A DNA stretch of 64,000 nt from Companilactobacillus ginsenosidimutans. Lineage in GTDB: Bacteria > Bacillota > Bacilli > Lactobacillales > Lactobacillaceae. The notes beneath the pieces are model-generated. The model had not been told where the DNA came from. It did no database searches and saw only the letters and a list, made by a program, of their open reading frames with translations. Location: the NCBI RefSeq assembly GCF_001050475.1, contig NZ_CP012034.1, positions 1,364,001 through 1,428,000 of the forward strand, written 5' to 3'. The position numbers and the translations under genes are program-made. Shown in pieces: positions 4,861-55,138 of this stretch. Positions within the stretch are counted from its first letter, which is position 1, and each line of letters starts with the position of its first letter.

Positions 4861-5033
4861 AAACTGCCGCCTTCCGGTCTGGCGCTACCGGGGCCGTGGT
4901 CGCTGTGAACACGATTCCAAGCCTTTTCAAGACCGGAAAAGTCTTGGAACTCGGTTTTATCGTAACCTTGCCCTATGGCAAGCTAACGATAACTCCACGG
5001 CTTGGGCCCCGGTAGCGCCAGACCTCCAGGCTA
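4861..5033 (+). repeat. Family B structured element, copy B1
   Basis: It opens with ACTGCCGCC, an unpaired TTCCGG, then a long GC-rich arm (about 4877-4899) that pairs with 4995-5022 (GGGGCCGTGG against CCACGGCTTGGGCCCC). Inside are two side arms: one with seven-base loop AAGACCG (about 4909-4952) and one with internal AA/CTA bulges and loop CTAT (about 4957-4992). It closes with CCTCCA, GGC and TAA. It differs from the other copies in having no same-strand gene just upstream. Confidence 0.8.
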
Positions 5034-5312
5034 ATTTGAGTTAATGACCAGCCCTTTTTTGTTTTTCCTATGCTTGAGCATTGGTCTTTGTTTGCAGCAC
5101 TTTGGCTTCATGGTTGCAGCCCAGCAAACAAAAATAGTGCTAAAAAAATAGGAAACTCGATTTTTTCTCGAATTTCCTATTATTAGTTTCTATTCTCTAT
5201 TTTCTGAACACATATATGTTCAGTTTGCGAGCTCACATTATACTAACTCGTCATCCTCATGAGTAATACCAGTGAACTGCCACCACCCACCAAAAAAGAT
5301 ATTAGAGGTAAA
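5034..5312. other. Gene-free stretch with several hairpins
   Basis: No gene is seen. It holds a GTTTGC...GCAAAC pairing inside a CCTAT...ATAGG pairing (about 5063-5155), an A/T-flanked hairpin at 5147-5183 (AATAGGAAA...TTTCCTATT) that could be a terminator, and a short dyad CTGAACA-CATATA-TGTTCAG (5204-5223). The first structure may be a degraded relative of the other intergenic elements. Confidence 0.45.
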
Positions 5313-5477
5313 TCCAGCCGGAAGAAGCAAAAAATTTAGGTAGCAGTGAAAGTGGCGTTAGGGCGAAAGCCCTAACACCACGGGACGATTTTGAAATTTG
5401 AGCGAACTTCTCAAAGTTCAAAATCGAGGTTGGAGACCGCACTGAGGCTCCAACCGGTCCCCACTGAGATACTTACG
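5313..5477 (-). repeat. Family B element B2, left part (split by the IS)
   Basis: This is the larger part of a family B element in minus orientation. Its long outer arm (about 5318-5350, GCAAAAAATTTAGGTAGCAG) pairs with 7152-7176 on the far side of the IS. Internal hairpins: GTTAGGGC-GAAA-GCCCTAAC, CGATTTTG...CAAAATCG with loop around CGAACTT, and GTTGGAG...CTCCAAC. On the minus strand the last has the seven-base loop TCAGTGC flanked by CC/GG as in B5 and B6. Confidence 0.75.
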
Positions 5478-5529
5478 ATGTGGTTGACATTTGAAATGTA
5501 ATAATTTTGATCACTTCGGAGGTATTAAT

Positions 5530-6204
5530 ATGTGGAAATATACTCAAAAAGAAAAATATAACCTTATCAAGGAATTTGAAAAATCTGATTTACCTCGACA
5601 GACATTTGCGAAAACCAAAGGAATCAGTCCCGAAACGTTTAGGGACTGGAATAATTACTACAAAGAGAATGGTTATGAAGGACTAAGGAATAGTAAATCA
5701 CGTACGTTTTATAGTGCTGAAACAAAGATCAACTCTGTTCGTGCATATGCGAATGGTGAAGGTAATCTAAAGCAAGTATGTGAAAAATTCGGAGTGAAAT
5801 CATCTAAACAACTCAGAATGTGGTTGATACAGTATAATAATGGCAAGACTCTTAAGGCTACGCCTGTCAGGAAGAAGGTCACTGCTGTGCCAAGAAAAAC
5901 AACGATAGATGAAAGAATTGAAGTTGTAGAATTCATTCTTAATAAACATCATTCCTATTCAGAAGCATCTGAACGATTTGATGTTTCTTATCAACAAGCT
6001 CGGCTTTGGGTTATGAAAGTCCAAGGTGATGGCTATAAAGCTCTCGTAGATGAGCGTGGCCATAGGATTCATCATAAAGCAGAAGAGATTAGTGAACTAG
6101 AGAAATTGAAACTTGAAAACCGTGAAATCAAAGCAAAATTGAATGAACAAGAAGCCATTGCGGCGTTTGAAAAAAAATTAAACGAACTTCAGCACAGGGG
6201 GTGA
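5530..6204 (+). CDS. IS3-family transposase OrfA
   Basis: About 224 residues from ATG 5530 (MWKYTQKEKY...), preceded by CGGAGGT; an upstream in-frame ATG at 5491 has no good ribosome site. At least two helix-turn-helix units are visible (LPRQTFAKTKGISPETFRDW and YSEASERFDVSYQQARLW), then a C-terminal leucine/charge-rich coiled segment (EISELEKLKLENREIKAKL) typical of IS3 OrfA multimerisation zippers. It would bind the IS ends and regulate transposition. A run of A residues (6170-6177) near its end offers a -1 frameshift site into OrfB. It overlaps OrfB by 4 bp. Confidence 0.9.
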   Translation: MWKYTQKEKYNLIKEFEKSDLPRQTFAKTKGISPETFRDWNNYYKENGYEGLRNSKSRTFYSAETKINSVRAYANGEGNLKQVCEKFGVKSSKQLRMWLIQYNNGKTLKATPVRKKVTAVPRKTTIDERIEVVEFILNKHHSYSEASERFDVSYQQARLWVMKVQGDGYKALVDERGHRIHHKAEEISELEKLKLENREIKAKLNEQEAIAAFEKKLNELQHRG

Positions 6205-7100
6205 ATTCACAACGAAAGCTGTCTTACCAGGCAATAATGGAGGTCAGCGAAGGTAATCATGGATGGAAATCTATTCTATTAGACCATATAGGTGTTTCTA
6301 GACAAGCGTTAAATAAGTTCTTACATCATAGGAAGACAGATTGGGAACACAAAAATGATTTATTGACTGAAGTTGTTCTTAAGACATATAAAGATCATTT
6401 TCAAAGAATTGGTGCGGGAAAGATTCTTTCTCATATTACAAAGGAACACCTTCTAGATTTTGAGGTCACGTACTACCAAGTTAGGCGTGTAATGAGAAGT
6501 GAAGGTATTAGTTGTAAATCAAAAGCAAAAAAGCGAAGTCGTAAAGATGACAATGATCAGCATGAAAAAGACAATGTATTAAACCAGAATTTTGAAGTGG
6601 AAAAACCAAACATGGTTTGGCTATCTGATTCAACCCAATTGGAATTTGGAATCAAAGAAACACACAAAGTAAAACTCAGTGGAATACTAGATTTGTGCAG
6701 TCGTAAAATAATTGGATCTTTTATAAGTCCATCAGAGACTGCAGAAGCTGAAATTGCGATGTTCAAAGAAACTTTTGAGGAAATGGGCGACGTTCATCCA
6801 ATGGTACATACTGATCGTGGACCTGCATTCACAGCCGTTAGCTTTAATAAATTGTTGGATGAACACAAAGTAATAAGAAGTTTTTCAAGACCAGGCACCC
6901 CATATGATAATTCACCAATGGAGAGCTGGTGGAGTAATTTTAAGGGAATCTGGATGGATAGTCATCCAAGACCAGCAACTTTAGAAGCACTGATTAAGCT
7001 AGTACAAGATGGAATTGATTATTTCAATAACATTGATAGATTGCCAACAAAAAATGGCCTTACTCCAGAAGAATGCTGGAATAAAGCCATTGCAAAGTAG
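6201..7100 (+). CDS. IS3-family transposase OrfB (DDE integrase domain)
   Basis: About 299 residues. The retroviral-integrase-type catalytic core is complete: first Asp in VWLSDSTQLEFG, second Asp in HTDRGPAF, and Glu in NSPMESWWSNFKG, each in the expected context. An HTH_21-like segment precedes it. The GTG at 6201 overlaps the OrfA TGA, but as in other IS3 elements the active transposase is probably an OrfAB fusion made by -1 frameshifting: from the A run at 6171-6177 the -1 frame is open right into OrfB. No inactivating change is seen, so the element may still be mobile. Confidence 0.92.
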   Translation: MNSQRKLSYQAIMEVSEGNHGWKSILLDHIGVSRQALNKFLHHRKTDWEHKNDLLTEVVLKTYKDHFQRIGAGKILSHITKEHLLDFEVTYYQVRRVMRSEGISCKSKAKKRSRKDDNDQHEKDNVLNQNFEVEKPNMVWLSDSTQLEFGIKETHKVKLSGILDLCSRKIIGSFISPSETAEAEIAMFKETFEEMGDVHPMVHTDRGPAFTAVSFNKLLDEHKVIRSFSRPGTPYDNSPMESWWSNFKGIWMDSHPRPATLEALIKLVQDGIDYFNNIDRLPTKNGLTPEECWNKAIAK

Positions 7101-7137
7101 TTTATAATATTTTAATTGTTTAAATGTCAACTTGACA

Positions 7138-7190
7138 ACGCAAGTTCACACAGCAACCTAAATTTTCTTGTTTCTGCAGGCGGCAGTGAA
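7138..7190 (-). repeat. Family B element B2, right part
   Basis: Minus-strand reading begins with TTCACTGCCG (7181-7190), the 5' tag of family B, about 28 bp behind the stop codon of the hydrolase gene. GCC here pairs with GGC at the far left end and the arm CAAGAAAATTTAGGTTGC pairs with the left part. The IS sits between. Confidence 0.75.
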
Positions 7191-7217
7191 CCTCCAAACA
7201 AACAATCCAATATAACT

Positions 7218-8228
7218 CTATGCTTTAACATCTTCTTCGTTCAAATCGACGAATTGTTGCTCAGGCTCTACGATAAACTCCTTAGGTTCAGTCTGATTCT
7301 CCAACAAATCGTTAGTCATATCAGTCTTGTATACAGTTCTGTTTCCATAAGGAATAAAGTAGCAAGATCTGTGTGAAATATCCATAATCATTTGATATTG
7401 AGTAAAATCCGAATCACCGTTGTCTTTAACTTTTACACCCTTAGGAATTGTGACACCATCAAGCATATGCATAATTGAATTAACTGATTCAGTTGCATTG
7501 GCTGCTTGTGGCATATTTTCACGTGTAAATACTGTTCTGACAAATCTGTCTGGTGATGTGTAGCTTCCTGGCCATACTTCTAGTCCGTTGACACCATTTG
7601 GTTCTACTGTATATGTTCCAAATGTTTGTGCTTCGTATGACTTTGGTTTCATGGCTAAGAAGTTTGAAAGGTTCTTCAAATGCCAACCAAATTCTGGTGC
7701 ATTTGTCATTACGTTTACTGGATCTTCTTCTAATTCTAGGCGGTGTCCTGCTCTTGGCTCGATGACATATGTTTTACCAGATACATCAGTAACTACCCAG
7801 TGTAGTGGTTGGTTCTTACCCATCACGCCCTTATCAGATTGGATAATGTGAACGTTCTTCAAGTTTTCGCGAAGTTCATCGATTGTCTTGTTGTTTCCTA
7901 GCATCCACAAAATGAATTCTTCTGAAACTACATTGATTGCGCCTTCTGTTGGTTCTGTTTCATATTCAGCTTCACCAGCAAAATATAATTCTGCTGTTGC
8001 TAATCCATATTCATTGAAGCCGTCAGCAACCATATAGTTATCACGATACTTTGCGCCTGTACCCATGATTCCATATTTGTTCTTATAAGTTTTTTTATCG
8101 AGTGAATTAATCCATTGGTAGTCCCTAGGAAGAAATGTTGGATTTCCGTTTAATACAAATGCGAAATCCATAGTTCTTGCTAAAAATTTTGTTCCATCTA
8201 ATGCTTCATAACTTAGACTTGTACACAT
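7218..8228 (-). CDS. Choloylglycine hydrolase family protein, penicillin V acylase-like
   Basis: An Ntn-type amide hydrolase of 336 residues. The start is ATG 8226-8228: after Met removal Cys2 (MCTSLSYEA) becomes the nucleophile, and GGAAGGATG lies just upstream; longer starts would bury the Cys. Other catalytic residues fit: R18 and D21 (LARTMDF), the Asn in VMTNAPEFGW, and the Arg in SPDRFVRT. NEYGLATAELYF resembles the YxeI/PVA branch more than classical bile salt hydrolases (AGLNYP). Substrates may be penicillin V, acyl-homoserine lactones or conjugated bile acids; activity cannot be settled from sequence. No signal peptide. A family B element follows the stop. Confidence 0.88.
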   Translation of the reverse strand: MCTSLSYEALDGTKFLARTMDFAFVLNGNPTFLPRDYQWINSLDKKTYKNKYGIMGTGAKYRDNYMVADGFNEYGLATAELYFAGEAEYETEPTEGAINVVSEEFILWMLGNNKTIDELRENLKNVHIIQSDKGVMGKNQPLHWVVTDVSGKTYVIEPRAGHRLELEEDPVNVMTNAPEFGWHLKNLSNFLAMKPKSYEAQTFGTYTVEPNGVNGLEVWPGSYTSPDRFVRTVFTRENMPQAANATESVNSIMHMLDGVTIPKGVKVKDNGDSDFTQYQMIMDISHRSCYFIPYGNRTVYKTDMTNDLLENQTEPKEFIVEPEQQFVDLNEEDVKA

Positions 8229-8396
8229 ATTCGTCATCCTTCCGTTTTCAACATGTATATTACATTGTCTACTTAACCACATATTGTGTAACAAAATTGG
8301 CTCAAAATCAATAAATTAAACATTTGATATTTAAACTACCAACGTTTTTGTTATATAGTAATATCGTAAGATAAATATGTTTGCGGAGGTTATTTT

Positions 8397-9341
8397 ATGT
8401 CAATAAATATCAAAGATGCACAAGATGTATATAAGGATGCTGGTGAAAGTGTTACTTTCGTTACTTTAAATTTGAAAAAAGATGATTTAGATAAGGATCG
8501 TGAAGTTATCGCTGAATTTGCTGACATGTCTAATTCAATCATCAATAGTATGCGCATCAGAAACCAAAACGACCAACTCGCTGTTGCTTGGGGATTTAGC
8601 TCAGATGCTTGGGATTACTTATTTCCAAACGCTCCAAAGCCAAAGGAACTAACTACTTTTAAAGAAATCAAGGGACCTAAATATACTGCACCTTCAACTC
8701 CTGGTGATATTTTCTTGCATGTTCGTGCCAAAGTTGAGTCTGTTACATATGAAGTTCTTGACCAATTTATGGAAATTCTTCGTCCAATTACTACTGTTGA
8801 AGATGAAACTCATGGATTTAGGTATCTTGAAGGACGTGCGATTGTTGGATTTATCGATGGCACTGAAAATCCAGCTGGTGTTGAATCAATGGATTACACT
8901 TTGATTGATAGTGATGAGGACAAAGAATTTGCTGACGGATCATATGCGTTTTCACAAAAATATATGCACAATATGGATGCTTGGAAGAGTCTTCCTACTG
9001 ACGAACAAGAAAAAACTATTGGACGTCGCAAATTCTCTGACCGTGAATTAGATGACGACGAAAAATCGCCTAATGCTCACAACATCGTTTCCAAAGATGA
9101 AGAAGGAGGCGTCGAGCACAAGATTGTTAGAATGAATGTGCCATTTTCAAATCCTTCTAAAGATGAAACTGGTACTTACTTTATTGGTTATTCGAAGAGT
9201 TTCCACATTACTAATAATATGTTGACTAACATGTTTACTAAGAGTGATCGTCTTCTCGATTTCAGTACTCCTATTTCAGGCACCTTATTCTTCATTCCAT
9301 CAAAAACAACTTTGGATATAATTGCCGAAGGTGAATATTAA
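8397..9341 (+). CDS. DyP-type heme peroxidase
   Basis: 314 residues, the usual size of cytosolic class B-like DyPs. The signature FIDGTENPAG (GXXDG with the distal Asp) is near residue 155, the proximal heme histidine is in SPNAHN, and a distal Arg is in VRMNVPF. It reduces hydrogen peroxide or organic peroxides using dyes or other donors. No Tat signal and no encapsulin neighbour are seen. GCGGAGGT precedes the ATG. It is monocistronic, with a hairpin terminator behind it and the acylase gene divergent in front. Heme must be acquired, since most lactobacilli do not make it. Confidence 0.92.
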   Translation: MSINIKDAQDVYKDAGESVTFVTLNLKKDDLDKDREVIAEFADMSNSIINSMRIRNQNDQLAVAWGFSSDAWDYLFPNAPKPKELTTFKEIKGPKYTAPSTPGDIFLHVRAKVESVTYEVLDQFMEILRPITTVEDETHGFRYLEGRAIVGFIDGTENPAGVESMDYTLIDSDEDKEFADGSYAFSQKYMHNMDAWKSLPTDEQEKTIGRRKFSDRELDDDEKSPNAHNIVSKDEEGGVEHKIVRMNVPFSNPSKDETGTYFIGYSKSFHITNNMLTNMFTKSDRLLDFSTPISGTLFFIPSKTTLDIIAEGEY

Positions 9342-9353
9342 AAACCATAACAA

Positions 9354-9383
9354 AAAACGATATCCAGCGGATATCGTTTTTTT
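9354..9383. terminator. Bidirectional terminator
   Basis: ACGATATCC-AGC-GGATATCGT flanked by A6 and T7, between the convergent dyp and ydbT-like genes. Confidence 0.9.
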
Positions 9384-10848
9384 AGTGCTTATACCAATTA
9401 ACAATTTGTTCAATGTCAGAATCATTTTGATAATTAACTTTAATCTTCTTTTGAGTGGCTCCTGAGCGAACATTGACATTCAAACTAGACATATCCTTGT
9501 GTTTTAGCCAAATGCTTTGACGCTTCTCAATGAATTGAACGCTCGACCTAGGTATGAAGAATACCTGATTTGTTAAAACTTTGTTGTTCCTGATAACTAG
9601 AAAGTCGTCCGTGACTACTTCAACTTTAGATCGTTTGGCCGAAAAATATGCCGGAGTGTACCAGAACAATAATTCAGCAATGACCAAAGTTACCCAGAGC
9701 CAAGTTATCGAATGTAAAAATCCGATAGTCAATACAACGGTTACCAATGCAAAATATGTTGCGTTGCGTAAATCGTAAAAGAATGTGCGATGATCCGGAC
9801 TAAAGGCTGACACTTGTTCTGCAGGTATCTTTGGAAAGAATTGTTTCAAAAATTTATTTACATCACGCTGAGCGATTACTGGCATGACGATGATATCTTT
9901 TTCCGAATCACCCTTTTTCGAATTGGAAATTATTACTAATTGCACGGTGACAATTTTCAGAAAGCTTCTGAGTAGCGGTTGTTTCAGCATTACTGCTTGA
10001 ACACGATCCATTTTGATGGTAGTTTTGCGTGTCCGTAGCAATCCGCGTTCGGTTATAAATTGTCCGTCTTTTTCAGTTAATTTGAAGTGATAATACTGAA
10101 TTATCAATGCGATTACGGAGCCAATGTAAAATACAAGAAGTATTGCAACCAATATTCCGATAATGATTAGGACACCAATGTGAGAGGCTTGTTGGGCAAT
10201 ATTCTTATATAGCGTTTGGCTGATTCCATTCTGAATTTTTCCATATGCGGCCAAAACCACCACAATTCCGGTCAGAAATGCTGGTGATGTTAGTGCAAAT
10301 TTGACTAAATCTCGCCAACTGATTGTATACGTATTGCCAATATTCTCAGTAATTTTGTCTGGTTTTTCTTGAACATTTTCATTAACCTCAGAAGTTTTGA
10401 GTTTTACTGACTCATTTCGTCTATGATGATTGATCTCATCCTTCAATGTTATTGGGACAGCCTTCAGCTGAACCTCGGGCTTATCTGAATGACCAGCCGT
10501 CTCGATTTCCAGTTCTTCTAAGTTGAACGGCTTTAGGAAAAACCATTGGTTAGTCGTGATATTTTGAATTCTTTCGTAAGGTACATGATTGACCTTTTTT
10601 ACGAACACACCATATTTTACAATTATTTCATCATCCAAAATTTGATAGGTGAAAAAGATAAACTTTAGCACCGTTATCGCGATGATAAATAGTACTAACA
10701 CCACGACTATCCAGATCATCAATACGTCATCATCCGAGCTAGTCGCCCCAAACAAACCGGCAGCAAAAGGTATGACCATTTGTTTTATTGTGTCGAATAG
10801 GAAAAATAATAATGCGGCTATATGAAGGTGTCGAGGCTTAGATATCAT
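9382..10848 (-). CDS. YdbT-like membrane protein with bacterial PH (bPH2) domains
   Basis: 488 residues with several membrane segments alternating with bPH2 domains; the recurring pattern (VKYGVFVKKVNHVPYERIQN, GLLRTRKTTIKMDRVQ, RNNKVLTNQVFFIPRSSVQF) shows three such domains. Homologues work with YdbS and in Bacillus are linked to protection against certain bacteriocins/antibiotics; the biochemical role is unknown. The start overlaps the end of the ydbS-like gene by 11 bp, indicating translational coupling, and GGGAGG precedes the ATG. Confidence 0.88.
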   Translation of the reverse strand: MISKPRHLHIAALLFFLFDTIKQMVIPFAAGLFGATSSDDDVLMIWIVVVLVLFIIAITVLKFIFFTYQILDDEIIVKYGVFVKKVNHVPYERIQNITTNQWFFLKPFNLEELEIETAGHSDKPEVQLKAVPITLKDEINHHRRNESVKLKTSEVNENVQEKPDKITENIGNTYTISWRDLVKFALTSPAFLTGIVVVLAAYGKIQNGISQTLYKNIAQQASHIGVLIIIGILVAILLVFYIGSVIALIIQYYHFKLTEKDGQFITERGLLRTRKTTIKMDRVQAVMLKQPLLRSFLKIVTVQLVIISNSKKGDSEKDIIVMPVIAQRDVNKFLKQFFPKIPAEQVSAFSPDHRTFFYDLRNATYFALVTVVLTIGFLHSITWLWVTLVIAELLFWYTPAYFSAKRSKVEVVTDDFLVIRNNKVLTNQVFFIPRSSVQFIEKRQSIWLKHKDMSSLNVNVRSGATQKKIKVNYQNDSDIEQIVNWYKH

Positions 10849-11323: not shown

Positions 11324-11374
11324 ATCCCAACCTCATGATATTTTCTATAAGCATATCAATATTAGAGATATTAT

Positions 11375-11412
11375 AAAAGCCGCCCAATTTATTTTGAACG
11401 GCTCTATTTTTA
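11375..11412 (-). terminator. Terminator of the small membrane protein gene
   Basis: On the minus strand GCCGTTC and GGGCGGC (with G-T pairs) enclose an A/T loop and are followed by TTTTAT. It separates the 11429-11620 gene from ydbST. Confidence 0.65.
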
Positions 11413-11428
11413 TATTCATTTTTTACAT

Positions 11429-15929: not shown

Positions 15930-16109
15930 TGTTGAACAACTTTTTGAATATGATTTCGTTTTCTTGGTTCATTTTTATCTAGCGGAAACGCTAAAAACAA
16001 AACTGACCCACACATATAAGCTGTCCAGAGCTGCGGGGGTGTTACGCACCCCTCTCCGCTATGGCCATCTTATATGCATGGGTCAAGTGCGTTTTGTTTT
16101 TGGCTCTAT
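15930..16109 (-). repeat. Family A structured repeat, copy A3, with linker
   Basis: On the minus strand it begins right after the reductase TAA with ATAGAGCC. Helices: AAAAACAAAAC/GTTTTGTTTTT, TGACCCA/TGGGTCA, CATATAAG/CTTATATG, central GGGGTG...CACCCC hairpin, then a small TAGCG-TTTC-CGCTA hairpin and the AT-rich linker (about 15930-15980) shared with copies A4, A5 and A7. Confidence 0.85.
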
Positions 16110-17119
<1,010 letters not shown>

Positions 17120-29393: not shown

Positions 29394-29567
29394 ACTGCCG
29401 GTTCCGGAAGGAAATAGATTTTTTGGCTGGAACGCTGCCGGGATCGTTTGAAGCTATTTCAAAGTTCGAAATATCTCCAAAGCGACCCTTTCACTAAGCT
29501 GACTTCGTCAGCAAAGTGAAATTTGGCGGCTGAGCCAAAATCTATTTCCTTCCTCCACCTAGTTCTC
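29394..29567 (+). repeat. Family B structured element, copy B3, behind perR
   Basis: ACTGCC-GGT-TCCGG, then arm AAGGAAATAGATTTT (29408-29422) pairing with AAAATCTATTTCCTT (about 29536-29551), closing with CCTCC-ACC-TAG. Side arms: TTTGAAGCTATTTC with loop AAAGTTC (29461-29467) and a TTTCACT...AGTGAAA arm with inner GCTGAC-TTC-GTCAGC and AA bulges. GGT and ACC form the outermost helix. Confidence 0.82.
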
Positions 29568-36518: not shown

Positions 36519-36697
36519 TTCACTGTCGACTGCGAAGGGAAATCGATTTCTGACCTGGAACGTGGTGGGCACAATTTGAAACCATCTCATAGTGCGAGAT
36601 GTTTCCAAACTTGGCCTTTGAGGTAAGTCGGGACGGTTCCCCGACTAACTCAAATTTCACCACTGAGGTCAAATCGATTTCCCTTCTCCGTCTGGTT
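36519..36697 (+). repeat. Family B structured element, copy B4, behind merR
   Basis: TTCACTGTC-GAC-TGCGA, arm GAAGGGAAATCGATTT (36534-36549) pairing with AAATCGATTTCCCTTC (36671-36686), closing TCTCC-GTC-TGG. Side arms: TTTGAAACCATCTC with loop ATAGTGC (36589-36595), and TTTGAGGTAAGTCGGG...CCCGACTAACTCAAA. It starts about 13 bp behind the merR stop. Confidence 0.82.
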
Positions 36698-39173: not shown

Positions 39174-39394
39174 GGGTTTGGTGGCTCCTTTGGGGTTTTG
39201 TACACTATAGCAGATTTTGGGTATGAAAAACCAAGATTGTGGTTTGGACAATCTTGACTTTTGTTTGGGTGGTTGGTTAATTTTAAACTATAGCTTTGGT
39301 TTACACTATTCTGAGTTTGTTGTGAACTCCAAATAATCTTCTTGTGCTGAACATTTTTTTGACTATGATTATTTTCTCTTGGTTCACTTTCATG

Positions 39395-39474
39395 TAGCGG
39401 AAACGTTAAAAACAAAACTGACCCACACATATAAGTCGTCCAGAGCTGCGGGGGTGTTACGCACCCCTCTGCTT
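39395..39474 (-). repeat. Half copy of family A, A4
   Basis: It contains the stop-distal half only: TAGCG-GAAA-CGTTA, AAAAACAAAACTG, ACCCACACATATAAG and the GGGGTG...CACCCC hairpin on the plus strand, then breaks off. The AT-rich linker precedes it (about 39300-39394). It is a decayed tandem copy behind A5. Confidence 0.8.
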
Positions 39475-39691
39475 GAATTTTTAAGTGAAATCTTGATTGG
39501 TGATATCGGTTTTGAGCGACTTTTTGAATATGATTATATTCTCTTGGTTCACTTTCATGTAGCGGAAACGCTAAAAAACAAACTGGACACTGCGTGTAAG
39601 CTGGACAAAGCTGCGGGGCGTTACGCGCCCTCTCCGCTGTGTCGCATCTTACACTCCGTGCCCAAGTGCGTTTGTTTTTTGGCTCTATTTT
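39475..39691 (-). repeat. Family A structured repeat, copy A5, with linker
   Basis: On the minus strand it starts directly at the stop of the SDR gene (AAAATAGAGCC). Helices: AAAAAACAAAC/GTTTGTTTTTT, TGGGCAC/GTGTCCA, TGTAAG/CTTACA, and hairpin GGGCG-CGTAA-CGCCC. The linker at about 39475-39560 matches those of A3, A4 and A7. Confidence 0.85.
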
Positions 39692-40890: not shown

Positions 40891-41110
40891 TGATTGGAAA
40901 TTGAGGTGAACTTATTATTTGTGGGATTGGTTTTGAATGATTTTTTGAGTATGATTGGTTTTACTTTGTTCACTTTTATGTAGCGGAAACGCTAAAAATC
41001 ACACTCAACACTGCACACAAGGCGCCCAGAGCTGCGGGGGTGTTACGCACCCCTCTCCGCTATGGTCGTCTTGTGCTCCGTGTTGAAGGGCGTGTGATTT
41101 TTGGCTCTTT
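40891..41110 (-). repeat. Family A structured repeat, copy A7, with linker
   Basis: It abuts the stop codon of the aldo-keto reductase (AAAGAGCC on the minus strand). Helices: AAAAATCACAC/GTGTGATTTTT, TCAACAC/GTGTTGA, CACAAG/CTTGTG, and hairpin GGGGTG...CACCCC; then TAGCG-TTTC-CGCTA and the AT-rich linker (about 40891-40980). Confidence 0.85.
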
Positions 41111-41974
41111 TTATTCTTGGTGTCCATTATGCCACATGTCAACGGCGGTATCTGATAAGCTATTTAGTTTTTCCATATCTTCCTCAGAAATCTTGAAGTC
41201 GAGTTTTGCGTTGTCGAGGATGTGTTCTTTGTGGGTTGCCTTTGGCAGTGGTAGAGCTCCGTTTTGAATTACAAATTGGATTGCTAGTTGAGCTACACTG
41301 GCTTTATATTTTTCTGCGATGCGTTCTACTGTTGGGTTGCTTAGCATTCTACCTGTTGCTAGTGGTGAATATGCTTCTACTAGAATGTCGTTTTCTTTAG
41401 CATATGCAGAAATCTTTGGTTCTGTGTATCCTACGTAATATTGGATTTGGTCAACTGCTGGTTTTACGTTTGAGTTGTCGATCAATGCTTTCATGTCTCT
41501 GACATTAAAGTTTGACACGCCGATTGACTTAACTTTTCCTGTTGCTAGGATTTCTTCCATTGCTTTCCAAATTTCTTGGTTGGCTTTGTCATATTTTGCA
41601 GGATCAGCTGGTACGTTACCCATTTCTTGCCATGGGAATGGTGCGTGAATTAAGTACAAGTCAAGGTAGTCGATATCTAGATTGTTGAAAGTTGTTTCAA
41701 AATCCTTCTTGGCACCTTCATATGTCTTTGTTTCACCAGGCAATTTTGATGTGACGTAAATTTGGTCACGGGGAATTCCTGAGTCACGGACAGCTTGTCC
41801 CACTTCTTTTTCATTTCCATATGCTAAAGCAGTATCGATATGACGATATCCGGCTTCCAAGGCGTCAAGAACTGATTGGCGAGTCTTTTCAGCAGGCATT
41901 TGCCATGTACCAAAAGCTACTTTAGGAATTTCTAAACCATTGTTTAATGTGTATGTTTCATCTAATTTTGTCAT
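41111..41974 (-). CDS. Aldo/keto reductase (YvgN/2,5-diketogluconate reductase type) 1
   Basis: 287 residues, TIM-barrel NADPH-dependent reductase. The catalytic tetrad is visible: Asp in HIDTALAYGNE, Tyr in the same motif, Lys in YVTSKLPGE and His in YLIHAPFPWQ. GVSNFNVRDM and PLPKATHKEHI bind the cofactor. It reduces aldehydes such as methylglyoxal. It carries a MerR-type promoter just upstream and a family A element abutting its stop. Confidence 0.92.
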   Translation of the reverse strand: MTKLDETYTLNNGLEIPKVAFGTWQMPAEKTRQSVLDALEAGYRHIDTALAYGNEKEVGQAVRDSGIPRDQIYVTSKLPGETKTYEGAKKDFETTFNNLDIDYLDLYLIHAPFPWQEMGNVPADPAKYDKANQEIWKAMEEILATGKVKSIGVSNFNVRDMKALIDNSNVKPAVDQIQYYVGYTEPKISAYAKENDILVEAYSPLATGRMLSNPTVERIAEKYKASVAQLAIQFVIQNGALPLPKATHKEHILDNAKLDFKISEEDMEKLNSLSDTAVDMWHNGHQE

Positions 41975-47780: not shown

Positions 47781-47948
47781 ATTCAGCACGGAGGTAAGGT
47801 TTCGCGGGGGCCCAAGCCGTGAATTTATTGTTGACGAGCCAAAAGGCTCGTTTACAATAAGCTCGCTTCGGGATACCGCACTATGGATTCCGAACGAGCC
47901 ACAGCGTCCACGGCCCCCGCGGAACCTTACCGGAGTGCGGCAGTGAAC
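47781..47948 (-). repeat. Family B structured element, copy B5, behind icd
   Basis: On the minus strand TTCACTGCC-GCAC-TCCGG begins 4 bases behind the icd stop. The arm TAAGGTTCCGCGGGGGCC pairs with GGGCCCCCGCGAAACCTTA, closing CCTCC-GTGC-TGA. Side arms: TTCGGAATCC with loop ATAGTGC and GGTATCCCGAA, and TTATTGT-AA-ACGAGCC with loop TTTT. It shares large parts with B6. Confidence 0.85.
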
Positions 47949-47951: not shown

Positions 47952-49229
47952 CTACACTCGAGTTTTCTCTATATTCTTAGCAACAAAATCACCAAACCCA
48001 CTAGTACTTAACTCTTCAGAACCCCTGACATTGCGGGCAAAATCCATCGTAGTATGCTTCTCAGCAATAGCATCCCCGATGCCCTGCTCAATCAATGTAG
48101 CAACTTCATGCCAGCCAATATAATCAAACATCATAGCGCCCGACAACATTAAAGAAGTAGGGTTCAATTTATTTTGACCAGCAAATTGAGGGGCAGTTCC
48201 GTGAGTGGCCTCAAAAATAGCCTGACCAGTCTGATAATTAATATTGCCACCAGGTGAAATTCCAATACCGCCAACTTGTGCAGCCAAGGCATCAGAAATA
48301 TAATCACCATTCAAATTCATCGTAACAACCACGTCAAAGTTTTCCGGATGTAACAAAGCTTGTTGGAAGAAATTGTCGGTTATCACGTCATTTACAATTA
48401 ACCTTCCAGCAAACTCAGCAGCCGTCAAAGCCTCATCAGCCTTTTCTTGACCTTTTTCTGCTTTAATTTCAGCGTATTCATTCATGGTAAATACATTATC
48501 ACCATACGTTTCAGCCTCTTCGTATCCCCACTGTTTGAAGCCACCTTCTGTTTTTTTCATAATATTACCCTTATGAACCAAAGTAAGTTTCTTCAAATTG
48601 TGTCGGAAGGCATAATCCAGTGCCGCGTGGACAATTCGTTTTGATCCTTCGGAAGATACAGGTTTTATCGCAAAATTTGAAGTCTTAGGGAATCTAACTT
48701 TATCTAATTGGTTATTTTCTTTCAATAAATTTAGCAATCCAGTTGCCTCATCACTACCTGCCGAAAAATCAATTCCAGCATAAATGTCTTCAGTATTTTC
48801 TCGGAAGACCGCGATATCAACATTTTCAGGATGTGTTACTGGTGATGGTACACCTTTAAAATATTTAACCGGCCTGAAGCAAGCGTAAAGATCCAATTTT
48901 TGACGTAATGTAACATTAATGGACCTGTGGCCTTTGCCAATTGGAGTCGTCAAGGGACCTTTAATCGCAACCAAGTTATCAACTAAAGTATCGAGTGTCT
49001 CTTGAGGTAACCATTCGCCAGTTTTTTTGTATGCAACTTCACCGGCTAAAAGTGGCTTCCAGTCAACTTTTTTATTCCCGTTATAAGCTTGTTTTACGGC
49101 TGCATCGAAGACTACTTTTGCTGCTGACCAAATTTCTGGACCAATTCCATCCCCTGCTATAAAAGGGATAGTTGGTTCATCAGGTGTGACAAGTTTTCCA
49201 TTTTGCATAGTAATTTTTTCTGAACTCAC
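47952..49229 (-). CDS. icd: NADP-dependent isocitrate dehydrogenase
   Basis: 425 residues from GTG 49227-49229, preceded by AAGGAGG; it overlaps the citZ stop codon by one base (TAGTG), showing translational coupling. Motifs: IPFIAGDGIGPEIW, RSINVTLRQKLDLYACFRPV with the phosphorylatable Ser and Arg ligands of isocitrate, ENTEDIYAGIDF, and the NADP-type KLNPTSLMLSGAMMF with GTAPQFAGQ. It oxidatively decarboxylates isocitrate to 2-oxoglutarate with NADPH. It is the last gene of acnA-citZ-icd. A family B element follows. Confidence 0.95.
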   Translation of the reverse strand: MSSEKITMQNGKLVTPDEPTIPFIAGDGIGPEIWSAAKVVFDAAVKQAYNGNKKVDWKPLLAGEVAYKKTGEWLPQETLDTLVDNLVAIKGPLTTPIGKGHRSINVTLRQKLDLYACFRPVKYFKGVPSPVTHPENVDIAVFRENTEDIYAGIDFSAGSDEATGLLNLLKENNQLDKVRFPKTSNFAIKPVSSEGSKRIVHAALDYAFRHNLKKLTLVHKGNIMKKTEGGFKQWGYEEAETYGDNVFTMNEYAEIKAEKGQEKADEALTAAEFAGRLIVNDVITDNFFQQALLHPENFDVVVTMNLNGDYISDALAAQVGGIGISPGGNINYQTGQAIFEATHGTAPQFAGQNKLNPTSLMLSGAMMFDYIGWHEVATLIEQGIGDAIAEKHTTMDFARNVRGSEELSTSGFGDFVAKNIEKTRV

Positions 49230-50338
49230 TATAGAACCTCCTTGATGCAAGTATCATCTATATAACTTCTATCCGTTGGTCCCACATATTCAGAATTCGG
49301 ACGAATCAAAGTTTTTTCACGTCGTTGTTCCATGACGTGAGCTAACCAACCAGATGTCCGACAAGCTGCAAATACCAAAGTGAAAGTTTCCTTTTCAAGC
49401 CCTAAGCAGTGATAAATCAAAGCAGTGTAATAGTCGACATTTGGATGTAGACCAGTTTTCTCGAGCATGTAGTCAGCCAAAGTCTGTTGGATATTGTACA
49501 AATCAATATTCCCAGTTTCTTCAGCAAGTTTTTCAGCAATACCTTTTAGAATACAGGCTCTAGGGTCACCATGCTTGTAAATTCTGTGGCCAAATCCCAT
49601 AATCTTGCGACCTTGCGCCATCTGATCCTTAACAAAATCGATTGGATCTTGGTCGCCTTGAACGATGTCCATCAGCATTTCGAAAACACGCTCATTTGCA
49701 CCGCCGTGTAGAGGTCCTTTCAATGCACAGACTGCAGCAGTTAGACATGAATAATAATCTGAAAAAGTTGAAGCGACAACTCTGGCGGTGAATGTCGAGG
49801 CATTGAATTCGTGGTCCGCGTGCAAAATCATAACTGTATTAAACATTTGAGATAATTCAGAATCTGGCTTTTTCCCAGTCATCATGTAGAGAAAATTGTC
49901 AGCAACTCCAAGATCTGGATCAACCTCGAGAAATGGCTTATCATCACGAATCCGAATAATTGCAGCGATTGCCGTTAACATTTTCGCCAAAATCTTGGGC
50001 GGTTCATCGTGATCAACATCATTGGTTGTCCCAAGTAGCGAAGTAGTTGTACGCAAAATACTCATCGGATGCTGTGGCTCTCTAGCGATATACAGCAAAA
50101 GACGAATTGTTTCAGCTGGCAAGACCATTTTGCTTACCAAATCCTTGCGAAAATCTTCCAGTTCTTCTCTATTAGGAAGGTGTGTCTTCCAGAGCAAATA
50201 CACCACTTCTTCAAAACTCGCGTGTGCTTTGGCCATTTCTTCTACAGAATAACCCGCATAAGTTAATCGTTCATTTTTTGTTGAACTGATATGAGTTTCA
50301 TCAACAACAATCCCTGCTAATCCTTTTGGATGATCCAT
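49229..50338 (-). CDS. citZ: Citrate synthase
   Basis: 370 residues from ATG 50336-50338, preceded by AGGAGGT. It condenses oxaloacetate with acetyl-CoA. Catalytic residues: His in LHADHEFNASTF, His in MGFGHRIYKHGDP, and Asp in NVDYYTALIY; KGPLHGGANE is the active-site loop. The size and layout fit the Gram-positive type II-short enzyme. It is the middle gene of the operon, 33 bp behind acnA and overlapping icd by one base. Confidence 0.95.
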   Translation of the reverse strand: MDHPKGLAGIVVDETHISSTKNERLTYAGYSVEEMAKAHASFEEVVYLLWKTHLPNREELEDFRKDLVSKMVLPAETIRLLLYIAREPQHPMSILRTTTSLLGTTNDVDHDEPPKILAKMLTAIAAIIRIRDDKPFLEVDPDLGVADNFLYMMTGKKPDSELSQMFNTVMILHADHEFNASTFTARVVASTFSDYYSCLTAAVCALKGPLHGGANERVFEMLMDIVQGDQDPIDFVKDQMAQGRKIMGFGHRIYKHGDPRACILKGIAEKLAEETGNIDLYNIQQTLADYMLEKTGLHPNVDYYTALIYHCLGLEKETFTLVFAACRTSGWLAHVMEQRREKTLIRPNSEYVGPTDRSYIDDTCIKEVL

Positions 50339-50370
50339 CTTCAATACCTCCTTATCAATTTTTCAATTGT

Positions 50371-52983
50371 CTAAACTCCTAATTTGTTATCAACCATCAT
50401 CGGCAAAATACCGTGGGCTTGATAATATTTCTTATCAATTGGCGCATCAAATCTGACTTTAGTGTCGAATTTAATCGTATGATCATTATTCTTAGCTACG
50501 ACGTGCGCTGTTTTGTCATCACGTGTAATTGAAATTTGTTCGTCACCCTTTAATCCGAGTGATTTAGCACTGTCGCCTGGTTTATATTGCAAAGGTAAAA
50601 CACCCATCATAACCAAGTTTGAACGGTGAATTCTTTCATAGCTTTCCGCAATAACAGCTTTAACACCAAGAAGTTCCACACCCTTTGCGGCCCAGTCACG
50701 AGATGAACCCATCCCATAATCTTTACCAGCCAAAATTACAGTATCAACATTGTGTTTCTTGTAATCCATGGCAGCTTCATAAATAGTTGTATCTTCATCA
50801 GTCAACCATGAATGAGTAAAGCCACCTAATTTATCAGGTGTCAGTTCATTTTGGAGACGAACATTTCCAAGTGTCCCTCGCATCATAACTTCGTGGTTAC
50901 CACGGCGAGAACCGTATGAGTTAAAATCGGGCATTTGAACTCCGTGTGCCAACAAATATTTACCAGCAGGTGAAGTTTTTCCAATAAATCCAGCTGGTGA
51001 AATGTGGTCAGTTGTGATTGAATCGCCTAATTTAGCTAACACACGCATATCTTTCAAATCACTAGTTTCAGTGTTTTCAAACAATGGTGGATTAGCAATG
51101 TAAGTCGACTTTTCATCCCAAGGATAAGTAGTCGACTTAGCAGCGGGCAAATCATTCCAAGTTTTATTTTGATCAAAAATATTAGCATAGTTTGTTGAGA
51201 ATAATTGTGGACTGAGATATTTGTGTATAACAGAACTAATCTCATTTACATCTGGCCACAATTCCTTGAAGTAAACTGGTTTTCCATCTTTGTCATTCCC
51301 AAGGGGATCTTTCGTAATATCAATATCGACAGTTCCAGCAAGCGCGTAAGCCACAACTAGTGGTGGTGAAGCCAAGAAAGTATCTTTGGTCAATGGATTT
51401 ACACGACCTTCAAAGTTTCTATTTCCACTTTCAATCGCAGCGATTGGATAAGGATTGTCAGCCAATTTCGACTGCAGATTCTCCTTTAACTTACCTGAGT
51501 TACCAATACAAGTTGTACATCCGTAACCAACAATATTGAAGCCTAAGGCATCCAAATATTTTTGTAAGTCAGAAATTTCAAGATACTTAGTAACAACACG
51601 TGATCCGGGTGCAAATGAAGTCTTCACATACTTCGGAACTTTAAGACCCCTCTCGACCGCCTTTTGTGCGAGCAGTCCAGCGGCAATCAAAACTTCAGGA
51701 TTAGAAGTGTTGGTACAACTAGTAATAGCAGCAATTCCTAAGTCACCGGGACGAAGCTTAAAGTCAGTATCTTCAACGTTAACTGGGAAATCTCCCATTT
51801 CATCATATTGTCTAAAATGACTAGGCATATCCTTCAAATAAATAAGGTCTTGAGGACGCTTTGGACCAGCCAAACTGCTTTGAACAATACCTAAATCAAG
51901 CGATTCGTTCTCAGAGTAATGTCTGTAAGCATCTTCAGATTCATCGTAGAAAAAGCCATTTTCCTTGGCATATTTTTCAACGAATTCAATTTGTTCAGGT
52001 GATCTATCAGTCAATTTCATGTAAGCCAATGTTTGATCATCAATTGGGAAGAAACCACAAGTAGCACCGTATTCTGGCGCCATATTAGCAATAGTTGCAC
52101 GGTTTGCTAAAGGAAGGTTCTTCAAGCCAGGTCCATAGAATTCAACAAATTTTCCAACAACATTATGTTTTCTCAAAAGGTTAGTAATAGTTAACGCCAA
52201 ATCAGTAGCAGTAGCTGTATCAGGTAATTTACCCGTCAACTTAACACCGACAACATTAGGCATTGGAAAATATGATTCTTGCCCCAACATGCTAGCCTCA
52301 GCTTCAATTCCACCAACGCCCCAGCCTAGAACACCTAGTCCATTTATCATGGTCGTGTGTGAGTCAGTTCCAACTAATGTATCTGGAAAAGCAACCATCT
52401 TCCCGTTAACTTTTTCCTGACGAATTACTTCAGATAAGTATTCCAAATTAACTTGGTGAATAATTCCGGTATCAGGTGGAATTATCGTCAAGTTATCAAA
52501 ACTATTTTGCGCCCATTTCAAAAATGTATAACGCTCATGATTACGTTTGAACTCTTTCTTAACATTGAAATCGAATGCTTGTTCATTAGCTGCCATATCA
52601 ACTTGAACGGAGTGATCAATAACCAAGTGAACTGGCACATCCGGATTAATTTTATTTGGATCACCACCACGTTTCTTAACCTCATCACGCATAGCGGCGA
52701 GATCGACAAGTGCTGGAACACCGGTAAAATCTTGCAAGATTACACGTTCAGGTTTATAAGCAACATCTTCGTCATGATTCTTATCCCAATCGATAAACGA
52801 TGGTAGAAATTTTTTTATAATTGGTTTTGTGGCACTGTGGCGCAAAGTTAATTCCAAGAGAACTCGGATTGAATACGGCATCTTAGAAACTTGCTGGTGA
52901 TGTGCAGCCAAGTATCCCGCAATATCGTAAAAGGAATAAGTCCTTCCATTAACATGGAACTGTTTTTCGTAATTATCTTCCAT
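50371..52983 (-). CDS. acnA: Aconitate hydratase
   Basis: 870 residues, slightly short of the usual 890-905 but with all domains. The 4Fe-4S cluster Cys are in AAITSCTNTSNPE and VGYGCTTCIGNSG, and the active-site regions VGTDSHTTMINGLGVLGWGV and YGMGSSRDWAAKG are intact. It isomerises citrate to isocitrate and can act as an RNA-binding regulator when iron is low. First gene of acnA-citZ-icd, the oxidative half of the TCA cycle leading to 2-oxoglutarate for glutamate synthesis. ACGAGGTGCG precedes the ATG. Confidence 0.95.
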   Translation of the reverse strand: MEDNYEKQFHVNGRTYSFYDIAGYLAAHHQQVSKMPYSIRVLLELTLRHSATKPIIKKFLPSFIDWDKNHDEDVAYKPERVILQDFTGVPALVDLAAMRDEVKKRGGDPNKINPDVPVHLVIDHSVQVDMAANEQAFDFNVKKEFKRNHERYTFLKWAQNSFDNLTIIPPDTGIIHQVNLEYLSEVIRQEKVNGKMVAFPDTLVGTDSHTTMINGLGVLGWGVGGIEAEASMLGQESYFPMPNVVGVKLTGKLPDTATATDLALTITNLLRKHNVVGKFVEFYGPGLKNLPLANRATIANMAPEYGATCGFFPIDDQTLAYMKLTDRSPEQIEFVEKYAKENGFFYDESEDAYRHYSENESLDLGIVQSSLAGPKRPQDLIYLKDMPSHFRQYDEMGDFPVNVEDTDFKLRPGDLGIAAITSCTNTSNPEVLIAAGLLAQKAVERGLKVPKYVKTSFAPGSRVVTKYLEISDLQKYLDALGFNIVGYGCTTCIGNSGKLKENLQSKLADNPYPIAAIESGNRNFEGRVNPLTKDTFLASPPLVVAYALAGTVDIDITKDPLGNDKDGKPVYFKELWPDVNEISSVIHKYLSPQLFSTNYANIFDQNKTWNDLPAAKSTTYPWDEKSTYIANPPLFENTETSDLKDMRVLAKLGDSITTDHISPAGFIGKTSPAGKYLLAHGVQMPDFNSYGSRRGNHEVMMRGTLGNVRLQNELTPDKLGGFTHSWLTDEDTTIYEAAMDYKKHNVDTVILAGKDYGMGSSRDWAAKGVELLGVKAVIAESYERIHRSNLVMMGVLPLQYKPGDSAKSLGLKGDEQISITRDDKTAHVVAKNNDHTIKFDTKVRFDAPIDKKYYQAHGILPMMVDNKLGV

Positions 52984-53313
52984 TTCGCACCTCGTCCTAT
53001 AAATTAGATTATTTCTAATAAGTCTAACACCATCTTAATTTTTATGTTAATGAATCATCATTTTTTGAAGTGAGAATTTATTTAAAAATGGCAAAACAGC
53101 ATTTTAACTTTATTAAACAAAGTAAATATGATGCTTATGCTTAATAAAAATCATATATAGACACATTTTAAAAAAATAATTAATTTGGATATGATAATTC
53201 AATTCATGACCAATCCTATATTTTAGTCGAAATATTAAAATTAAATTAGAAAAATGTACAGTGATTACACTTGACCCAATATATTGCTTAACCGAAAAGG
53301 CGGACGTATACTA
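52984..53313. other. Intergenic region upstream of acnA
   Basis: No gene is seen. A dyad ATTAGA-TTATT-TCTAAT (53003-53019) lies about 20-36 bp before the acnA start and could be an operator. The rest is AT-rich promoter sequence for the divergent genes. Confidence 0.4.
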
Positions 53314-53841
53314 GTGGTTAAGAAACCAGAATTTACATTTTATGAACGAAAAAATGGTCATAATGAGGGATTAGAGTTTATGGACTCTTTGCCAAGGAAA
53401 GATCGAGGTAAGTTAATTTCTCAGCTAAAGTATATTAAGAGCGAGGGTATGTTGATCGCGATTAATAAGCAAATTGTAAAGAAACTCGATTCAAATATTT
53501 TCGAAATTAGATCTAGCTTAAATCACAACATCCAGCGACTGTTATATTTTAGTATTTCTAATAACTCTTACATCATCACCCACGGTTTTACAAAAAAGAC
53601 CCAGAGAACACCAATTAGACAAATTGATAGAGCAATAAAAATCAGAAGAGAATATTTTAGGAGTGAAAAAATGGCAAACGTTAAATTTGATGATTATTTA
53701 AAAGGACAATTAAAAGATCCAGTGGTTCGAAAAGCTTACGAAGAAGAAATGAAGAGATTAAAGGCTTTACCTATTTTAGAAAAATCAAGCTCTGATGACA
53801 CAAGTGTCATGCAGAAATCAAAAGATCAAAAGAGAGCCTGA
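53314..53841 (+). CDS. RelE/HigB-type toxin fused in frame to a truncated HigA-like antitoxin
   Basis: About 175 residues from GTG 53314, with AAAAGGCGG upstream. Residues 1-118 look like a HigB/Gp49 toxin (KKPEFTFYERKNGHNEGLEF, HNIQRLLYFSISNNSYIITH, HGFTKKTQRTPIRQIDRA). The frame continues without a stop into MANVKFDDYLKGQLKDPVVR, the usual start of the partner antitoxin. That part ends after about 57 residues with no helix-turn-helix. An AGGAGTG site precedes an internal ATG at 53671, so the short antitoxin could also be made alone. It is probably a decaying or self-neutralising toxin-antitoxin locus. Confidence 0.75.
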   Translation: MVKKPEFTFYERKNGHNEGLEFMDSLPRKDRGKLISQLKYIKSEGMLIAINKQIVKKLDSNIFEIRSSLNHNIQRLLYFSISNNSYIITHGFTKKTQRTPIRQIDRAIKIRREYFRSEKMANVKFDDYLKGQLKDPVVRKAYEEEMKRLKALPILEKSSSDDTSVMQKSKDQKRA

Positions 53842-53888
53842 ACAGATTTCATCGTTGAGTGATTGTTAACGCAAGTAAATGAAGAAAA

Positions 53889-53918
53889 TGGAAGCTACTA
53901 TCTAGCTTCCATTTTCTG
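53889..53918 (+). terminator. Terminator behind the toxin/antitoxin gene
   Basis: GGAAGCTA-CTATC-TAGCTTCC with TTTTC tail. Confidence 0.75.
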
Positions 53919-54019
53919 TGTCTATCTTTATTAAGTGATTTTGAATATATATACTTCTTGACCTAAAACACGTTTCAGAAGTTATTCTATTTCAGACATA
54001 ACACGAAAGGTAAAATTCT

Positions 54020-54829
54020 ATGATTAAACACATTTTTTCGGACATGGACGGGACTATTCTCAACGATGCAGGCAACATTACTGACACCAACGTCAGAATT
54101 ATCAAAGAGACCAACCTCCCCTTCACACTTGTATCAGCCAGAGCACCAATGGAAATGGACGATGTGATGACTAAGCTAAATCTAACCGCACCACAAATTG
54201 GATTTAATGGAGGACTGATTTTCCAAAAAGTTGATGGAGAAGTAAATGTTTTAAGTGAACGTCACATTGACTTGGATATTGCTGAAAAAGTTTTTAATAT
54301 TATACAGACAAAATTCGAGGACGTAAGTCTAAGTTGGTACAGTTTGAATGATTGGTATTCTGAAAGAATTGACGATGGAATCCGCCTTGAAGAAAACTAC
54401 ACAAACCGAAAACCAACAATCATGAATTCAAAAGAATTTTTCAACAATCCCGATGCAAAAATTTTCAAACTAATGATGATTATTTTTGATAAACAAACTA
54501 TGCACGATTTGAAAGTGTATTTAGAATCCCAACATTTAACAGGTGTCAGCATCCAGCAATCCAGCGATACCTATCTAGAAATAACCAGTGATCAAGCATT
54601 AAAATCTAGAGGAATTCAATTCGTAATTGATCAAGAAAAACTCAAGCCAGAAGAAATGTTAGCAATGGGCGATGGTCACAATGACTTACCAATGCTAAAT
54701 ATGGTAGCCCACCCAGTAGTTATGAAAAATGCACTGCCGGAGGTATTAAAAGTAGCAAGATTTGTTACCAAATCAAACGAGGAAGACGGAGTGGGATATG
54801 CTTTGGAACACTATTTACCGAAAATTTAG
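54020..54829 (+). CDS. Cof-type HAD-IIB phosphatase
   Basis: 269 residues. Motif I FSDMDGTILND, motif II LVSARAPMEM, the cap domain in the middle, and motif IV AMGDGHNDLPMLNMV are all present. Members dephosphorylate sugar phosphates, flavin mononucleotide or pyridoxal phosphate; the substrate is not known here. CGAAAGG precedes the ATG. It is a single gene with its own terminator. Confidence 0.92.
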   Translation: MIKHIFSDMDGTILNDAGNITDTNVRIIKETNLPFTLVSARAPMEMDDVMTKLNLTAPQIGFNGGLIFQKVDGEVNVLSERHIDLDIAEKVFNIIQTKFEDVSLSWYSLNDWYSERIDDGIRLEENYTNRKPTIMNSKEFFNNPDAKIFKLMMIIFDKQTMHDLKVYLESQHLTGVSIQQSSDTYLEITSDQALKSRGIQFVIDQEKLKPEEMLAMGDGHNDLPMLNMVAHPVVMKNALPEVLKVARFVTKSNEEDGVGYALEHYLPKI

Positions 54830-54835
54830 GGAAAT

Positions 54836-54879
54836 AAAAAAAGAGATTTAAGTCAAGAATGACTAAATCTCTTTTTTTA
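54836..54879 (+). terminator. Terminator of the HAD phosphatase gene
   Basis: AAAGAGATTTAAGTC-AAGAAT-GACTAAATCTCTTT with A and T runs. Confidence 0.88.
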
Positions 54880-54971
54880 ATATTTACCTGATATATTCTT
54901 ACTAACATCCGAGTATCGTGAAGACTAGAGTGAACATCATCACCAAAAAAGATAATGTTTTGGTACTCTAC

Positions 54972-55138
54972 CTTAGTCCGCAGGTCAGAATTTTTGGGGC
55001 CAAAGCCGTGAAATCCATGTTGGCATGCCGTGGGGCATGCTTACATGGAGGCCGCTTCGGGATACCGCACTATGGATTCCGAACGTGCCCACAGCGTCCA
55101 CGGCCCCAAAAATTCTGACCGGAGGACGGCAGTGAACC
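54972..55138 (-). repeat. Family B structured element, copy B6, behind the DUF1516 gene
   Basis: On the minus strand TTCACTGCC-GTCC-TCCGG starts 12-13 bp after the stop. The arm TCAGAATTTTTGGGGCC pairs with GGCCCCAAAAATTCTGA, closing CCTGC-GGAC-TAA. Side arms: TTCGGAATCC with loop ATAGTGC, and CTCCATGT-AA-GCATGCC with loop CCAC. It is close to B5. Confidence 0.85.

Follow-up and report, generated by a model that had tools for sequence, protein, structure and literature searches.

Copies in the window

The 64,000-nucleotide (nt) stretch of Companilactobacillus ginsenosidimutans DNA described here (NZ_CP012034.1, positions 1,364,001 to 1,428,000; hereafter the window) contains five intact copies of a cloverleaf-like element, termed E1-type, and one copy of a sister type, E2, that is interrupted by an insertion sequence. 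Coordinates are those of the window unless marked as genome coordinates, and gene calls are the longest non-overlapping open reading frames, uncurated. Matches were scored with two covariance models, R1 for E1 and R2, which was built from eight copies of E2. The elements and the features that belong with them are as follows.

4863-5034, plus strand: E1-type element; fold z-score -9.3; R1 177.2 bits
5035-5313, no strand: spacer of a facing pair, 279 nt, between the E1 copy at 4863 and the split E2 copy
5314-5464, minus strand: E2-type element, larger piece; R2 match, 114.3 bits
5465-7148, plus strand: insertion sequence that interrupts E2 and is not part of the element; 1,684 base pairs (bp); HTH_Tnp_1 and rve proteins
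7149-7187, minus strand: E2-type element, smaller piece; tag ACTGCC at its end in the minus-strand reading
29394-29562, plus strand: E1-type element; fold z-score -7.4; R1 140.1 bits; stop codon of a Fur-family gene 27 nt before
36522-36695, plus strand: E1-type element; fold z-score -7.4; R1 129.3 bits; stop codon of a MerR-family gene 15 nt before
47783-47944, minus strand: E1-type element; fold z-score -6.7; R1 152.5 bits; stop codon of the isocitrate dehydrogenase gene 7 nt before
54973-55133, minus strand: E1-type element; fold z-score -8.8; R1 165.3 bits; stop codon of a DUF1516 gene 17 nt before

The copy at 4863-5034 lies upstream of a GntR gene and not behind a stop codon. Its facing partner, across the gap of 279 nt, is the split E2 copy, whose R2 match covers genome positions 1369314-1369503 (window 5314-5503, minus strand). 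The insertion sequence within it, which we take to be IS3-like, starts with TGA at both ends, and the trinucleotide CAC is duplicated around it (5462-5464 and 7149-7151). A first-pass annotation of this DNA had described six copies of a single family. Five of these are intact, with the outer helices and loops that it quoted, while the sixth proves to be of the E2 sister type, on the minus strand, in the pieces 5314-5464 and 7149-7187.

Fold and covariation

The element is 160-190 nt long and multibranched, and the sister type E2 is longer and carries an additional arm. The fold shared by the five intact window copies begins with the tag ACTGYC, often preceded by a sequence resembling GGTGGTTC, and continues through helix P1 (3-4 bp), a TCC/TCC-like internal loop and the long helix P2 (about 17-20 bp). 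An internal loop of TGGAAC or GTGGNC against TGA or TTG then leads into P3, which has 6 bp. Next come two arms, P4 with a loop of 7 bases and P5 with a TAA/AA internal loop; the closing strands and then TRR complete the element. Folding of the five intact copies gives z-scores from -6.7 to -9.3, and for each copy none of 200 dinucleotide shuffles folds as well.

The earlier claim that the helices covary is borne out, and a selected single-strand structure is strongly supported, by this folding and by an alignment of 22 genome copies. Pairing is found in 95.9% of alignment cells, compared with 73.3% in shuffles, and both partners have changed in 49 of 53 pairs; all four helices covary. The covariation score is 0.598 against 0.167 in shuffles, and none of 500 shuffles reaches any of these measures. 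When the partner is shifted by 1 to 3 columns, pairing falls to 30-49%.

Complementarity within copies also extends further than had been described. The flanks outside the tags pair as well, each copy with a sequence of its own, to form outer stems; at a local-alignment score of at least 9, such pairing is found in 29% of 109 copies and in 2.8% of 1,200 mismatched flank pairs. An excess of G.T over A.C in the outer stems (49 to 11) was considered as a sign of wobble and set aside, being largely a matter of composition: mismatched flank pairs give 193 to 89.

The idea that both arms change together in one event was examined with paralogue pairs grouped by their divergence, as well as with eight counterpart pairs, and was rejected. 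In the three counterparts that resemble each other most (93-95% identity), changes on one side alone exceed those on both sides by 9 to 1. Ordinary compensatory evolution therefore suffices.

Two variations on the common plan were seen. A nested module of about 65 nt forms two small hairpins, and its 31-nt core occurs at 12 places in the genome (at most 3 mismatches), all 12 of them inside cloverleaf elements, either in the P4 region or after P5 (for example G000:C1:90866-90896). The module seems to be an insert confined to this repeat. In addition, five genome copies have a 5′ CTG in place of CCG beside P1 and a 3′ GAG, CAG or similar in place of TRR (among them those at genome positions 1155501, 1291563, 1995293 and 2456121); in these copies, a change in the tag seems to go with one at the 3′ end.

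Copy number and distribution

R1 finds 135 matches in the genome and R2 finds 105. Of the R2 matches, the best 35 were counted as E2; many of the others overlap E1 copies. This gives about 140 distinct copies in all, 105 of E1 type and 35 of E2 type. The family described in the first-pass annotation is thus real, but its six copies are only a sample, and the facing pairs described below had escaped that account. Density along the chromosome is uneven, with 1 to 5 copies per 200 kb between 0.2 and 1.0 Mb and up to 21 per 200 kb elsewhere.

A covariance model search of related genomes, which the annotation had proposed, returns many homologous copies. Within Companilactobacillus, 34 of 36 sampled genomes have a match at E≤0.01, the source genome included. 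Across the Lactobacillaceae, matches at E≤1e-4 occur in 50 of 201 genomes and 12 of 40 genera. Under strict filters, no match was found in 24 genomes from outside the genus, 23 of which belong to other families of the order. Among the matches listed by an exact-pattern scan are Companilactobacillus, Levilactobacillus, Lacticaseibacillus, Schleiferilactobacillus and Lactiplantibacillus; one pattern match also lies in a Roseovarius metagenome-assembled genome, without a covariance-model match.

Rfam 15 gives no match above the gathering score in the window, and permissive searches of 17 element loci give no credible match on an element. Open-licence papers yielded no account of such a repeat in lactobacilli, which is weak evidence of absence. 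The earlier statement that no named class fits agrees with the searches made, and the outcomes named beforehand as grounds for abandoning the idea, namely a lack of homologues, a lack of covariation or a match to a known family, did not occur.

Gene ends and facing pairs

Among 109 examined copies, 75 follow a gene in the sense orientation (p 1e-4); the other 34 adjoin a gene start instead. Among the 75 sense copies, 53 start within 50 nt of the stop codon; on the opposite side, a convergent stop codon is equally near in only 3 of 72. No replication-strand bias was seen in the two genome halves (22 plus to 15 minus and 41 plus to 31 minus; the position of the origin was not located).

In this genome, all 21 neighbour pairs no more than 600 bp apart are facing, with gaps of 207-514 nt, where 5.7 neighbours would be expected at random. 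When the limit is raised to 1,000 bp, 22 pairs are facing and 1 has the same direction.

Dispersal and turnover in Levilactobacillus

The icd gene is only 72-75% identical in five congeners, so intergenic DNA aligns poorly among them, and Levilactobacillus species were taken for the comparison of empty sites. Levilactobacillus tujiorum has 20 paired units, each about 440 nt long and spread over 20 loci, which can be aligned over their whole length and have sharp outer ends. E1 and E2 are conserved in these units and the flanks are unrelated, while the spacers of 37-79 nt evolve fast, with homology visible in a subset. Solo copies of E1 and of E2 with sharp ends also occur.

One orthologous intergenic region holds one element in L. 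brevis, one in L. suantsaiihabitans and three in L. cerevisiae. Its counterpart in L. angrenensis is 128 nt long and gives no model match, and that in L. yonginensis is about 20 nt long and has no element.

Six orthologous element sites fall into two groups. At three elements (E1 and E2 of loci L177/L199 and E1 of L226/L230), the local counterpart is the best match among the loci compared, at 93-97%. At the other three (E1 and E2 of L174/L208 and the L212 site), some other copy is closer than the local counterpart, which fits turnover, as if the local copy had been replaced. Three more diverged counterparts show an element that is less conserved, at 73-81%. Maintenance and turnover are thus both seen at orthologous sites. 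As a separate observation, an E2-like element of L. brevis (L236, 2605-2818) is matched dozens of times, at 83-91% identity, in two related genomes, and its complement folds 16.6 kcal/mol better than the given strand.

The acting strand

An A.C mismatch on the strand on which the fold was first read, here called the annotated strand, corresponds to G.U on the complement, and the balance of the two mismatches can thus indicate which single strand folds. The test does not distinguish RNA from single-stranded DNA. Terminator-like hairpins of the same loci have G.T in 42 cases and A.C in 17 (single mismatches in 139 hairpins). In the element arms, with three fixed columns left out, A.C outnumbers G.T by 81 to 45 (p 0.002), and in E1 and E2 of Levilactobacillus tujiorum by 35 to 13.

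Folding energies favour the same side. Of the 91 E1 copies of this genome, 65 have the more stable fold on the complement, as do 60 of 68 longer copies of other genomes, compared with 57 of 120 random windows; the same holds for all five intact window copies. The fold is present on the annotated strand as had been proposed, but that strand is probably not the acting one, since the complement folds more stably and A.C exceeds G.T in most counts. The acting single strand is probably the complement.

Two candidates lose ground here. An RNA element on the annotated strand is weakened, as wobble is not clearly favoured there, unlike in the terminator-like hairpins of the same loci. A cruciform that uses both strands was dropped, given that the complement is both more wobble-tolerant and more stable.

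Comparison with known systems

In repetitive extragenic palindromes (REPs), in the bacterial interspersed mosaic elements (BIMEs) and in REP doublets forming hairpins (REPINs), the present repeat has its closest likenesses: it too is high-copy, extragenic, non-coding and structured, and it too occurs as inverted doublets and solo copies. In REPINs, an inverted doublet with a less conserved spacer is the unit of dispersal, alongside solo copies (PMC3116915, in excerpt), and the 21 facing pairs and the Levilactobacillus tujiorum alignment conform to this. The REP core is about 20-40 nt long with a GTAG-like or CGTC-like tag (PMC3733652, in excerpt). Here, in contrast, each half is 160-190 nt long, begins with ACTGYC and has several freely covarying arms rather than one short hairpin, and the repeat is found in Lactobacillaceae. 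The Y1 transposase of the system of REPINs and REP-associated tyrosine transposases (RAYTs) does not track the element.

BOX elements of Streptococcus pneumoniae are modular, structured intergenic repeats of a Gram-positive genome, and the present element resembles them in this by general description, not by alignment. Classical miniature inverted-repeat transposable elements (MITEs) of transposons with a DDE (aspartate-aspartate-glutamate) transposase are likewise small and non-autonomous with inverted ends; however, no target-site duplication appears in an offset scan of the present copies, and no matching transposon was found beside the element. A derivative of a retroelement or group II intron would call on a reverse transcriptase, and this genome has no RVT_1 (PF00078) match.

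The attC sites of integrons carry R″ and R′ boxes with the consensus RYYYAAC and GTTRRRY. Such R-boxes at both ends were found in none of the 109 copies, which are moreover dispersed rather than arrayed and have a three- or four-armed fold. The likeness to attC lies elsewhere: attC sits behind a stop codon, favours the bottom strand and conserves structure over sequence (PMC2727003, in excerpt), and so does the element. Overall, the element lacks tested features of the REPIN/RAYT system, DDE MITEs and attC and has no Rfam match, and it works most like REPINs and attC.

Searches for a mobiliser and a vector were negative. The recurrent neighbour genes, judged by eye in the 25 largest clusters, look like ordinary host genes and a few transposases, and none looks mobiliser-like. 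No plasmid or phage match was found for one Companilactobacillus E1 copy or for the Levilactobacillus tujiorum unit; a second E1 copy, searched against plasmids only, gave none either, and one exact pattern gave 0 matches in viral contigs.

Interpretation

Dispersal to unrelated loci with sharp ends, facing pairs, placement at stop codons, presence and absence at an orthologous site and covariation of four helices are all observed. The anatomy, with loops and tags that are fixed, arms that are free, a preference for one strand, inverted doublets and dispersed non-coding copies, fits an element that is read by its shape. Our preferred reading, to which we give a probability of about 50%, is a giant, multibranched, REPIN-like non-autonomous mobile repeat that probably acts as a folded single strand. 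Of the three options that the first-pass annotation had left open (an RNA of the 3′ untranslated region, a protein-binding hairpin and a non-autonomous mobile palindrome), the last is the best fit.

In this reading, E1 and E2 are two related non-coding hairpins, some of them in facing pairs, that would spread as a REPIN-like element. Their ends would be recognised by a putative enzyme through the single-stranded fold rather than through sequence, and the element would be active as one folded strand, probably the one complementary to the annotated strand. The protein may contact the loops and tags that stay fixed (GTTCACTG, the TCC/TCC-like loop, TGGAAC/TGA, TAA/AA and the 7-base loop), and the arms would need only to pair. 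Solo elements may be halves of former pairs or may have moved alone, and some copies may since have been kept in place by selection. A wider claim can be made only tentatively, and we regard it as doubtful: that these are a previously undescribed class of shape-coded mobile DNA, in which giant three- to four-armed hairpins are served by a strand-specific enzyme that reads fixed loops while the helices drift, placed behind stop codons and in face-to-face pairs in at least 12 Lactobacillaceae genera, with a 65-nt module and locus-specific outer stems.

Several results weigh against the mobile repeat. Candidate mobilisers do not track it: Y1_Tnp (PF01797) occurs in 18 of 36 genus genomes, is absent from the element-rich genomes G014, G022, G026 and G031 and is present in G006, where no element was found, while RVT_1 occurs in 12 of the 36. 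The offset scan of 109 copies, at lengths of 4-6 nt, shows no target-site duplication. The 21 pairs comprise 13 E1/E1, 6 mixed and 2 E2/E2, about what independent combination would give, so the pair is not a fixed unit in this genome, where most copies are unpaired; in other species, same-direction neighbours occur (loci L306 and L236). The strand preference is partly weak. The raw arm count is 115 G.T to 99 A.C, a per-column sign test gives 21 to 12 columns (p 0.16), and the complement is more stable in just 15 of 25 E2 copies (p 0.42) and 36 of 60 shorter copies (p 0.16). Some of the absences at 90% orthologous loci may be deletions rather than non-insertions, and in one possible deletion case (L213 compared with L209) GCCGCCTGCGGC remains. 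Finally, the three best-matching orthologous elements, at 93-97%, exceed their 1-kb flanks (85-89%), the spacer (71%) and the DNA that follows them (67%), a pattern suggestive of a local function.

This last point favours the main rival, a cis-acting RNA element in gene-end transcripts that would, for instance, protect the 3′ end or, if the complement is active, stop antisense transcripts running toward the gene, and that would have spread by duplication and been kept by selection on RNA structure. Besides the conservation above flanks at three sites, it would account for the 75 of 109 copies in sense behind genes, 53 of them no more than 50 nt from the stop codon, and for wobble tolerance on one strand. 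However, the strand that tolerates wobble runs antisense to the gene beside it, 34 of 109 copies adjoin a gene start, no conserved promoter-bearing spacer was seen, Rfam has no match, and close relatives differ in the presence of the element. We consider it rather unlikely.

A structure-coded recombination site like attC, at which a tyrosine-recombinase-like enzyme reads a folded bottom strand behind stop codons, is improbable. The stop-codon position, the bottom-strand preference and the free arms with fixed unpaired bases are traits of attC too (PMC2727003, in excerpt), yet R-box motifs at both ends are found in 0 of 109 copies, and the copies are dispersed and form no head-to-tail array.

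BIMEs have gyrase among the proteins that bind them. A BIME-like chromosomal site at gene ends, bound by gyrase or a nucleoid protein as extruded double-stranded DNA, is likewise improbable. BIMEs do bind several proteins (PMC2817692, in excerpt), and the facing pairs at gene ends and the mosaic composition, in which arms have been exchanged and a module inserted, are in keeping with such a site, but extruded DNA would use both strands alike whereas one seems preferred here, the spread is uneven (1 to 21 copies per 200 kb), and the element was not found in 2 of 36 genus genomes.

If the mobile, REPIN-like reading is true, many food and gut bacteria of one family carry a large population of DNA elements selected for shape and not for sequence, located at the ends of genes of central metabolism and regulation, and the REPIN idea would extend to a lineage with a different mobiliser. 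The roughly 140 copies in one genome are a rich natural data set on the contacts of a structure-reading enzyme. If the RNA reading is true, the elements would form a very large uncharacterised class at gene ends. Under either reading, the repeats are relevant to annotation, to assembly and to transcript ends in lactobacilli.

Other features

A match to the T-box leader at locus L122 (166-405), at 82.3 bits just below the gathering score of 93, is unrelated to the elements. The window also contains a second repeat family, at 1380-1540, 15960-16120, 39375-39530, 40960-41120 and 57156-57300, with more copies near 39560 and 40816. Its tip is fixed, AGAGCTGCGGGG...CCCCTCTCCGCTATGG, and its nested outer arms vary between copies yet pair. 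This family may be similar in kind to the cloverleaf elements. Among its five folded copies, the given strand folds better by at least 5 kcal/mol in three.

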